Assembly: GCF_000328525.1 (NCBI RefSeq)
Contig: NC_019964.1
Location: 930,001-994,000, forward strand
DNA: 64,000 nt
Direction of reading: 5' to 3'
Source of the DNA: Halovivax ruber XH-70
GTDB lineage: Archaea > Halobacteriota > Halobacteria > Halobacteriales > Natrialbaceae
A program made the position numbers and the translations under genes. Below are positions 9,120-62,367 of the stretch, piece by piece (positions within the stretch are counted from its first letter, which is position 1; each line of letters begins with the position of its first letter). The notes below the pieces were generated by a model. That model was not told the DNA's origin, did no database searches, and saw only the letters and a list, made by a program, of their open reading frames with translations.

Positions 9120-9638
9120 CCGCCTTGCACTCTTGGACGTCACCAAGATCATCGTGAACACATTCTGTTTAGTCCGTCGTCAGTTGACATCGTCGACACG
9201 ACTGGCTCACAACTGGGTGTATATGGTGGAAATACAGCCAAAACCGGGACAAAATCCGGATCACGTTGCGGTCAACTATACGGTGAGCGGTACTGGCTGT
9301 ACGCCACAGTCGATACGGACATGAACGAATTGCACCATACATAGCTTGTACCAACCAGAAACAAGGCAATACCGAGCGCGTTCTTCGCTGAAGTGCGGGA
9401 CAAACACGATGTCGACGATGCAAACTACCTTATCGATGGCGATCAGTCGCTGCAGCACGCCTGTCAGCGTCCAATTTTCAGATACGAGAGACGCGCCGAA
9501 CGAAATAGCGTCGAACGAGTCTTTCGAGAAATCAAACGATGGATGTCTTCGTTTTCCAACCCGTTCAGTCAGGCGCGACGAGGAACCTCTGACCAGTGGA
9601 TACGATCGCTAGCATTTGTATGGAATCAGCTTATCTGA
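9120..9638 (+). pseudogene. IS6-family transposase remnant, right copy
   Basis: The remnant retains EIQPKPGQNPDHVAVNYTV in one frame, then after frame changes VRDKHDVDDANYLIDGD, FRYERRAERNSVERVFREI, MSSFSNPFSQA and DQWIRSLAFVWNQLI with a normal stop at 9638. These are the C-terminal motifs of haloarchaeal IS6 transposases, including the glutamate of the DDE triad (NSVERVFREI). The N-terminal third is degraded. It has the same orientation as the left copy. Confidence 0.8.
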
Positions 9639-9782: not shown

Positions 9783-9795
9783 TAATTATATTATG
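9783..9795 (+). promoter_or_regulatory. TATA box of RNA/zinc-finger cassette A
   Basis: TAATTATATTATG is a strong TATA region in otherwise GC-rich DNA. It predicts transcription starting near 9814, just ahead of the first stem of the RNA element at 9817. The equivalent box in cassette B (62358-62367) has the same spacing to its own first stem. Confidence 0.6.
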
Positions 9796-9813
9796 CTTCG
9801 CTTCGATGTGCTG

Positions 9814-9966
9814 AACGGAAGCCACGCTCTCCATCACCTGCGCGGGGACATGCGTCTCAGAAATGTCCCGGGTGCTACTACCACCCGAGACGTGGTTTCC
9901 GAAAACCCTGCGGGGTTTTCAGTCACCATGATACGAAACTCACCATCGAGACAAAAAGGTCTCGCA
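9814..9966 (+). ncRNA. Candidate structured RNA element, copy A
   Basis: Four stems can form. P1 pairs 9817-9826 with 9891-9900 (ten pairs, one G-U) and encloses P2, 9869-9874 with 9882-9887. P3 pairs 9901-9908 with 9913-9920 around a TGCG loop and abuts P1. P4 pairs 9947-9952 with 9959-9964 around AAAAAG. The second copy at 62207-62337 forms the same four stems, and changes in P1 and P3 preserve pairing. It may be a structured mRNA leader or a separate small RNA; no T-rich terminator follows, which favours a leader for the downstream genes. I do not know an Rfam family for it. Confidence 0.65.
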
Positions 9967-10068
9967 CAGCAGTGGCATCGACAGCCGAAGCGCTACCCCG
10001 AATTCGTCTGGGATTCGAAACTCGGCGGGGATCTGCTTCTCAGCCTCGGCAATCTGAAGGTGAATTGA
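9928..10068 (+). CDS. Small basic ORF coupled to zinc-finger gene, copy A (46 aa)
   Basis: The frame starts at an ATG just after stem P3, begins MIRNSPSRQKGLA and is rich in Arg, Lys and Gln. It ends one base before the zinc-finger ATG. In cassette B the same frame begins MFRNTPSRQKGLA and its stop overlaps the next ATG. Of the first 13 residues 11 are identical, and the nucleotide differences there are partly silent. It may be a leader peptide that couples translation, or a real small protein. P4 lies within its first codons, so part of the conservation may be structural. Confidence 0.45.
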   Translation: MIRNSPSRQKGLAQQWHRQPKRYPEFVWDSKLGGDLLLSLGNLKVN

Positions 10069-10069
10069 G

Positions 10070-10297
10070 ATGGGTCGCTACGAGTACGACGAGCCGTTGC
10101 CGGATGAGCCGTGCGAGCGCTGTCGCACCGATCTGACGGAGACGCACTGGGCCAAACTCCGGGCTGTCCACGACGGGCCATCCGCCAGCGGGTATCGAGA
10201 TTCGGAGAAGCGGGTTTGCGTGGATTGTCTCGCGGCGCTCGGGATGCTGGAGTTCGAGATGAACGGTGCAGCTGGGGGTGGACAGAGATCGGTGTGA
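10070..10297 (+). CDS. Small zinc-finger protein, cassette A
   Basis: A 75-aa protein with two Cys pairs, CERC at 15-18 and CVDC at 50-53, giving Cx2C-x31-Cx2C, almost certainly one zinc site. The protein at 61860-62096 has the same spacing and similar flanks (CYRC... and CCPDCAAAMNLSEF against CVDCLAALGMLEFE). A purine-rich GAAGGTGA lies 7-14 bases before the ATG, a usable ribosome site, consistent with translation from a leader. Such haloarchaeal micro-proteins are mostly uncharacterised; RNA or protein binding is plausible. Confidence 0.7.
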   Translation: MGRYEYDEPLPDEPCERCRTDLTETHWAKLRAVHDGPSASGYRDSEKRVCVDCLAALGMLEFEMNGAAGGGQRSV

Positions 10298-61859: not shown

Positions 61860-62096
61860 CTAACCCCGACGAGCGTGTGCTTTCAATCGCTCCGAGAACT
61901 CGGAGAGGTTCATCGCGGCGGCACAGTCCGGACAACAGAACCGCTCCGCGGTCTGGTAGTCGTGTGAGAGCGCGGCCGGCGGCTCGGAGACGAGCCGAAA
62001 GAGCCGCGCCGGTGCCACGTCCCGATCACACCGATAGCACTCCTGATCGTGAGCCGTATCGCCGGTCCCGTCACGCTCTCGCTCGACGGATTTCAT
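61860..62096 (-). CDS. Small zinc-finger protein, cassette B
   Basis: A 78-aa protein with CYRC at 20-23 and CPDC at 55-58 (Cys54 also present), giving the same Cx2C-x31-Cx2C spacing as cassette A. It starts at ATG 62096 (GAGGTG lies about six bases upstream); the same frame is open to 62150. Its ATG overlaps the stop of the small upstream reading frame (62093-62245). It is rich in Arg and Glu. Confidence 0.7.
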   Translation of the reverse strand: MKSVERERDGTGDTAHDQECYRCDRDVAPARLFRLVSEPPAALSHDYQTAERFCCPDCAAAMNLSEFSERLKAHARRG

Positions 62097-62245
62097 CCGA
62101 GCACCTCGCAGTTCTGTCGGTCGAACTGCTCGAAGCGACTCGGCCCCCAATCCCGGAAAACGAAGCTTCGAGACGGGTAGCGATACGACTCTCTAGGCAA
62201 CGGCCGTGCGAGACCTTTTTGTCTCGATGGTGTGTTGCGGAACAT
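62093..62245 (-). CDS. Small basic ORF coupled to zinc-finger gene, copy B (50 aa)
   Basis: The frame begins MFRNTPSRQKGLA, is rich in Arg and Ser, and ends with a TGA that overlaps the zinc-finger ATG (ATGA). It corresponds to 9928-10068 in cassette A. Conservation fades after about 25 residues but RYP and FV elements persist. Evidence for a real peptide is the shared start, shared first residues and shared coupling; P4 of the RNA lies in the same codons. Confidence 0.45.
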   Translation of the reverse strand: MFRNTPSRQKGLARPLPRESYRYPSRSFVFRDWGPSRFEQFDRQNCEVLG

Positions 62246-62337
62246 GGCTGACAAAATCCCGTGAAGGATTTGGAAGCCACGTCTCGGGTGCTCTAACACC
62301 CGGGGCACTTTCGTACCCGTGCGGACGCGGCTTCCGT
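62207..62337 (-). ncRNA. Candidate structured RNA element, copy B
   Basis: On the minus strand P1 pairs 62335-62324 with 62283-62272 (12 pairs, one G-U), enclosing P2 62302-62297 with 62290-62285. P3, 62271-62266 with 62259-62254, begins directly after P1 as in copy A. P4 is 62226-62221 with 62214-62209 (the same CGAGAC/GTCTCG). Relative to copy A, G-U/G-C and A-U/G-U changes in P1 and an A-U to U-A flip in P3 keep pairing. Confidence 0.65.
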
Positions 62338-62357
62338 GCGAATGGTCGACGTAATGG

Positions 62358-62367
62358 ATAATATAGC
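62358..62367 (-). promoter_or_regulatory. TATA box of RNA/zinc-finger cassette B
   Basis: CTATATTATC on the minus strand predicts a start near 62337, at the first base of P1. Cassette A has the same geometry. Confidence 0.6.

Follow-up and report, generated by a model that had tools for sequence, protein, structure and literature searches.

Introduction

Translational riboswitches have a folded, conserved core in the 5′ part of the message that is closed by a stem, P1, and they act through a second pairing, incompatible with the first, that masks the site of initiation. Structured RNAs lying beside small genes, in multiple copies on plasmids, are also familiar from type III (ToxIN) and type I toxin-antitoxin loci. 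According to a 2021 paper (PMC8241225), experimental proof of natural riboswitches in archaea was then limited to a single case, which responds to fluoride; it comes from Thermococcus kodakarensis. On the protein side, PMC10716476 gives 43 of 282 Haloferax micro-proteins as carrying two C(P)xCG motifs, and SWIM zinc-finger proteins occur on haloarchaeal plasmids and in Halorubrum viruses (for example, BJ1 ORF10).

Here we describe a leader element that precedes a small zinc-finger gene in a window of 64,000 nucleotides from the Halovivax ruber XH-70 chromosome. Like translational riboswitches it has a folded, conserved 5′ core closed by P1 and a predicted, mutually exclusive pairing at the initiation region; it differs in that the AUG rather than a Shine-Dalgarno site would be hidden, that a hairpin lies inside the coding region, that more than 20 copies per genome stand ahead of accessory genes, that it has no Rfam family and that it is known here from sequence alone. 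As generally described, ToxIN and type I loci differ from the leader, which is a single 5′ copy fused to the mRNA; it shows neither an array of RNA repeats nor homology to toxins, and its RNA includes the start codon. The zinc-finger proteins encoded by the second ORF (ORF2) resemble CPxCG micro-proteins such as HVO_0758 (PMC10716476) in being short and having two Cx2C-type motifs. However, they match no Pfam family above cut-off and are encoded by the second ORF after a structured leader, which also stands ahead of unrelated proteins. SWIM-type genes also lie behind the Haladaptatus copies and several other copies of the leader, and a family of virus proteins is related to them; the virus homologues sit inside operons, and the leader was sought in their flanks.

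Results

A structured leader ahead of a small zinc-finger gene

Cassette A lies on the plus strand of the window and opens with a TATA box at 9786-9793 (TTATATTA). The leader RNA, including a hairpin within the first ORF (P5), covers 9816-9964 and scores 127.7 bits with covariance model R3 and 95.6 bits with model R2. The 5′ strand of P1 occupies 9817-9831 (GGAAGCCACG, C, TCTC; RNAfold and covariation), with 9817-9826 pairing with 9891-9900 and a TCTC/GAGA extension pairing 9828-9831 with 9887-9890. P1 encloses P2 at 9845-9869 (GGGACAT/ATGTCCC, 9845-9851 with 9863-9869), whose loop has a conserved GAAA on its 3′ side, and P3 at 9870-9886 (GGGTG/CACCC, 9870-9874 with 9882-9886); P4 follows directly after P1, at 9901-9920 (GAAAACCC/GGGTTTTC, 9901-9908 with 9913-9920). 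These three hairpins were each identified by RNAfold and by covariation. A sequence-only reading of the window had proposed the TATA box and stems P1 to P4, which were found in place, the stems folding as it described. All four stems are helices of the minimum-energy structure, at -51.7 kcal/mol (z -4.4; none of 200 shuffles was as good), these energies being computed for about 1 M NaCl and not for molar KCl.

The first AUG is at 9928, and the untranslated part is therefore about 112 nt; the structured leader of about 255 nt given by the earlier reading includes coding region, because ORF1 begins at this AUG. ORF1 (9928-10068, 46 aa, MIRNSPSRQKGLAQQ...) lies directly 3′ of the RNA and contains P5 at codons 7-13 (9947-9964; CGAGA-CAAAAAGG-TCTCG, identified by covariation). 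Its stop falls one base before the ATG of ORF2 (10070-10297), which on translation gives the 75-aa Cx2C-x31-Cx2C zinc-finger protein already recognised behind a small ORF. Across 183 copies of the leader an AT-rich box peaks at -30 to -25 from P1, starting 29-30 nt upstream, which is the usual archaeal spacing between TATA box and transcript start. Since the TATA box lies about 29 nt upstream of P1, known promoter geometry suggests that transcription would start at P1, which should form the 5′ end of the mRNA. Just 5′ of the cassette, at 9393-9638, is an 81-aa ORF that by eye resembles a transposase remnant.

The second locus, cassette B, lies on the minus strand at 61860-62367 and repeats the same order, as the earlier reading had noted. 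Its TATA box (TATATTA) is at 62359-62365 and the leader RNA with P5 at 62209-62336 (R3, 110 bits; RNAfold). RNAfold gives P1 at 62335-62324/62283-62272, P2 at 62318-62313/62308-62303, P3 at 62302-62296/62291-62285 and P4 at 62271-62265/62260-62254, and P5 is at 62226-62209. ORF1 (62093-62245, 50 aa, MFRNTPSRQKGLARP...) shares an ATGA overlap with ORF2 (61860-62096), which encodes a 78-aa zinc-finger protein. What did not hold is that these are a pair: a DNA search of the H. ruber genome, a single 3,223,876-bp contig, found 20 leader copies, and model R2 found 23 at E < 1e-7 together with one doubtful match. A typical H. ruber copy has a TATA box, the RNA, an ORF of 44-50 aa and then an overlapping or adjacent zinc-finger ORF. 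One copy (L130, genome 692107-692206, minus strand) looks decayed, with no recognisable TATA box, an altered P5 region and an ORF1 of 9 aa.

The leader belongs to an order-wide RNA family

Model R1, built from the 20 H. ruber copies, matched 59 of 101 Natrialbaceae genomes, representing 23 of the 29 genera, and the highest copy number seen in any of them is 32. With model R3, which was extended with distant members, matches at E <= 1e-4 were found in 246 of 392 sampled Halobacteriales genomes (72 of 95 genera), although the E-values are rough and these counts may include false matches among those below about 35 bits. Matches at about 35-50 bits were inspected by eye; almost all of them carry P1, an AUG, a TATA-like box and the P3 loop GUG..CAC, and at codons 9-11 either the hairpin or the motif of its loop, but one of them at least, L327, is doubtful. 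Carriers include two laboratory organisms, Haloarcula hispanica and Halobacterium salinarum. Outside the Halobacteriales, a search of a sample of the phylum with R3 gave one single match of 24 bits, which we treated as noise.

No Rfam family matched the window leader or those of 14 diverse carriers at gathering or relaxed thresholds, in agreement with the earlier statement that no described riboswitch or RNA family fits, and no description of the element was found in the open-access literature. About 1.2 kb upstream of one leader copy, the segment L370:243-340 (minus strand) matches the skipping-rope RNA family below threshold (E 0.051; 26 bits, where the gathering score is 36.7).

In a 65-sequence alignment, 11 base pairs covary and 76 cells are changed on both sides, compared with 24 +/- 4 in shuffles; in a 131-sequence alignment the figures are 25 pairs and 231 cells, compared with 83 +/- 13. 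Covariation of P1 to P4 lies above every shuffled and every column-slid control. The earlier reading had staked its case on homologues with covariation, and the covariance-model homologues in the Halobacteriales genomes do covary. In P1 of alignment A5 there are 115 G-U pairs against 20 A-C mismatches, and this excess argues for an RNA of this strand and not folded DNA. The loop nucleotides of P2, P3 and P5 are strongly conserved, and the core loops (GAAA in P2 and GUG-YU...CAC in P3) are common to copies ahead of unrelated genes. We conclude that the leader is an undescribed, order-wide structured RNA family with covariation.

Genes behind the leader

Among 184 distinct copies, 140 precede a zinc-motif ORF (ORF2 in 101 cases and ORF1 in 39), 40 have neither and four are cut off; the sample is weighted to Natrialbaceae and the zinc-motif rule is crude. 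The protein type varies with genus: Cx2C-x31-Cx2C in Halovivax, CPxCG..PCGC in Natrinema and others, SWIM in Haladaptatus, and a HalOD1-like protein plus zinc ribbon in Halostagnicola (a weak match, E 0.022). Haladaptatus ORF1 scores 17.8 bits against the SWIM zinc finger PF04434 (cut-off 19.6, E 0.0024), and its RefSeq name is SWIM. Operons without a zinc motif encode phage-integrase-like, PadR-like, staphylococcal-nuclease-like and TnpB-domain ORFs, and on Haloarcula hispanica pHH126 the leader precedes an annotated SOSS-B (RPA-like) gene, whose start codon lies exactly at the position predicted by the model. A regulon restricted to zinc proteins was rejected on the 40 copies ahead of non-zinc genes. 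Likewise, a metal-specific sensor is not supported, since the same RNA precedes these integrase operons and PadR-like, staphylococcal-nuclease-like and SOSS-B genes, and neither is a zinc-specific trigger.

The window ORF2 protein matched no Pfam (at gathering score), NCBIfam or PHROGs family. Its AlphaFold model (mean pLDDT 64, core 70-80) is a hairpin and a helix; Foldseek found nothing significant for it, no noteworthy sequence relative turned up in the PDB, and no function follows from it.

In one branch of the leader, ORF2 encodes a protein of 306-324 aa (L351:2030-3001 and homologues in Halobacterium, Haloarcula and Natrinema plasmids) with a weak, below cut-off match to the RAMP superfamily (E 0.0067); its homologues are found in 21 haloarchaeal plasmid records. 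A 240-aa ORF directly behind another copy (L331:547-1266) has as its sole match the Cas12f1/TnpB TNB domain (E 5e-9), and is possibly a truncated TnpB-type regulator or a remnant. A TFB (transcription factor IIB) gene comes after each of the SWIM zinc-finger-like genes seen on plasmids of Haloferax, Halorubrum and Haloarcula (L397, L398, L403, L404 and L405), and the leader model has no match in these five stretches. Haladaptatus plasmids show an unusual paralogue expansion, with up to 27 SWIM-type protein loci on one plasmid (for example, NZ_CP085339.1).

A predicted alternative pairing at the start codon

The sequence of the P1 5′ strand recurs in the segment 5′ of the AUG, which gives the P1 3′ strand a choice of partners: the P1 5′ strand or the start-codon region. 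In cassette A the P1 3′ strand (9887-9900, GAGA + CGTGGTTTCC; RNAfold and permutation tests) would be the strand shared by the two states, and the pre-AUG segment with the AUG (ACCATG, 9925-9930) can pair with CGTGGT at 9891-9896, a helix that we term anti-P1.

The complementarity between the P1 3′ strand and the pre-AUG segment plus AUG averages 16.0 over 190 sequences, compared with 13.3 +/- 0.16 when pre-AUG segments are permuted among sequences and 10.3 when their letters are shuffled; when each distinct P1 3′ strand is represented by a single sequence (n = 58) the mean is 15.1, compared with 11.4 +/- 0.35 and a best of 12.6 in 500 permutations, these tests taking no account of kinship. 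It can be seen that the two segments come in matched versions: GGCUUC/GAAGCC, GGUCUUC/GAAGACC, GGGUUC/GAACCC, GGCUUUC/GAAAGCC, GUGUCUUU/GAAAGACA and AUGGCCUU/AAGGCCAU, as well as CGTAGC opposite GCAATG among Natrialbaceae and GTGTCTTT opposite GAAAGACA in Haloarcula. Covariation of the alternative helix is modest on the fixed alignment A5, with 76.0% compared with 74.9% of cells paired, because most rows are Natrialbaceae and the register shifts; the alternative stem of Halovivax copies can be as short as 5-6 bp.

When the P1 5′ strand was removed in silico the AUG region shifted into the alternative helix. Deletion of 14 nt of this strand lowered the unpaired probability of positions -5..+1 from 0.47 to 0.22, compared with a change from 0.58 to 0.48 when the pre-AUG segment was shuffled. 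In the Halobacterium salinarum copy and in copy L330 anti-P1 is already part of the minimum-energy fold. Two hallmarks of a translational riboswitch were found here: a covarying structure in the 5′ leader and, computationally and with the modest signal on A5, a mutually exclusive platform at the initiation site. We conclude that the family has a predicted, covarying alternative pairing able to hide the start codon. The earlier suggestion of a small RNA with a partner protein fits poorly with this, as the start codon and P5 lie at set spacing and the RNA would be able to sequester that start codon in cis.

A two-state leader and its possible trigger

The leader is probably a cis-acting, two-state, riboswitch-like mRNA element that controls translation initiation. 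In one state P1 would close the core of P2 and P3 and leave the AUG region free. In the other, the P1 3′ strand would leave its partner and pair just 5′ of the AUG, often including the AUG itself, with P4 as the top of the alternative hairpin and the start codon hidden. Shine-Dalgarno sites are rarely used by haloarchaeal genes, and hiding the AUG would therefore be a sensible block to initiation. In Natrialbaceae, where the short first ORF would typically stop on the start codon of the zinc-finger gene, the zinc-finger protein is probably made by termination-reinitiation because of this arrangement. The two pairings and their covariation, as well as the set geometry and the overlap of the ORFs, were obtained computationally; switching in cells and its ON/OFF direction are inferences. 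The trigger should be common to all copies, whether a small molecule, an ion or one trans-acting protein, because the core is common to unrelated proteins; autoregulation product by product is unlikely because the products are unrelated.

Tentatively, and with somewhat less than an even chance of being right, the family would be a new ligand-binding riboswitch class, specific to haloarchaea and the largest known in archaea. Its switch would consist of the P1 3′ strand and the start-codon region, and it would have reached many accessory and mobile-element operons. It is also possible, if rather doubtful, that the leader responds to protein: one putative host RNA-binding protein would bind the P2/P3 core, or P5, and govern how every copy is translated, and no small-molecule ligand would be involved. 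This reading differs from the ligand reading in the trigger and is compatible with the two-state mechanism. The sharing of the P2 GAAA and P3 GUG-YU...CAC loops between unrelated downstream genes would fit such a protein, and a hairpin at a set place close to the start codon is reminiscent of translational operators; however, the two-state pairing suits a riboswitch equally well.

We consider it unlikely that the balance of P1 and anti-P1 follows temperature or intracellular salt directly, with no specific ligand. Anti-P1 in the minimum-energy folds of the H. salinarum and L330 copies indicates that the two states are near in energy in some copies, but a thermometer or salt sensor would not need the strong conservation of the P2, P3 and P5 loops. 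Unlikely to a similar degree is a constitutive role, in which the 5′-terminal stem and P5 shield the mRNA from decay or position the ribosome and regulate nothing; P1 at the predicted 5′ end and P5 at a set spacing after the AUG would agree with this, but it leaves the covariation between the pre-AUG segment and the P1 3′ strand unexplained.

A hairpin within the first ORF

P5 spans ORF1 codons 7-13 as CGRGA-loop-TCYCG, at a set spacing after the AUG. Codon 8 is AGA with CTC at codon 12 in 65 copies and GGA or GGG with CCC in 58, and GGA occurs with CTC once. Codons 7-12 are conserved at third positions while the paired changes swap R..L for G..P, and at codons 10-12 the third positions are near-invariant although the amino acids vary. 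Other families rebuild the hairpin at the same codons with other stems (for example, GGGCGT/ACGCCC, GGGTCA/TGACCC and GGGGC/GCCCC), and these positions there encode unrelated residues; P5 was not evident in Haladaptatus and some other groups. The apparent peptide motif of ORF1 is M[IF]AYILPGYKRPAR or MFRKTPSRQKGLAR, but since paired changes swap amino acids to keep P5, this 'conserved leader peptide' is mostly an RNA hairpin. P5 is predicted to be part of the element, at a set distance inside the first ORF. ORF1 itself is probably translated, because it ends in an ATGA overlap with the ORF2 start in 55 of the 101 two-ORF copies with a zinc-like ORF2.

The case for a functional leader peptide weakened once its conserved motif proved to be P5, and attenuation through ribosome stalling by a basic ORF1 peptide is very unlikely. 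The ORF overlap would suit an attenuator, as would codons 2-6, where hydrophobic residues are kept and third positions are free; against this, it is codons 7-12 that are most conserved, and they keep their third positions rather than their residues, which are unrelated in other families.

Spread of the leader

The leader copies are lineage-specific paralogues and also occur on plasmids, but five of nine testable Halovivax asiaticus copies have flanks that match the H. ruber genome. We conclude that the family expands within lineages and is not hypermobile. A mobile recombination cassette, for which element ends were not defined, was disfavoured by this synteny and by the RNA-type G-U pairs. 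More broadly, a DNA-level element with hairpins of folded single-stranded DNA is most improbable: high copy number, lineage-specific paralogues, plasmids and nearby integrase genes would speak for one, but the G-U excess is strand-specific, the element has a fixed place between TATA box and AUG, no terminal repeats were noticed and the flanks are conserved with H. asiaticus. An origin from viruses was also set aside, as the core pattern has no exact match in IMG/VR and zinc fingers of the window type have none in PHROGs. In one genome (G361; L374-L380) about seven leader copies, some 80-90% identical, are found no more than several hundred bases from the start of a contig, as though assembly had stopped in the downstream gene, which is repeated.

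Discussion

With more than 20 copies in this genome and members in most haloarchaeal genera, the family has the look of a large and so far undescribed class of switches that turn small accessory and mobile-element genes on or off. If true, it would be an order-wide archaeal cis-regulatory RNA with up to 32 copies per genome. It would also mean RNA control of initiation in archaea without Shine-Dalgarno sites, through hiding of the AUG and by an element that lies partly within the gene. Many small zinc-finger genes that lack annotation, together with some genes of integrases and plasmids, are brought by the leader into what may be one regulon.
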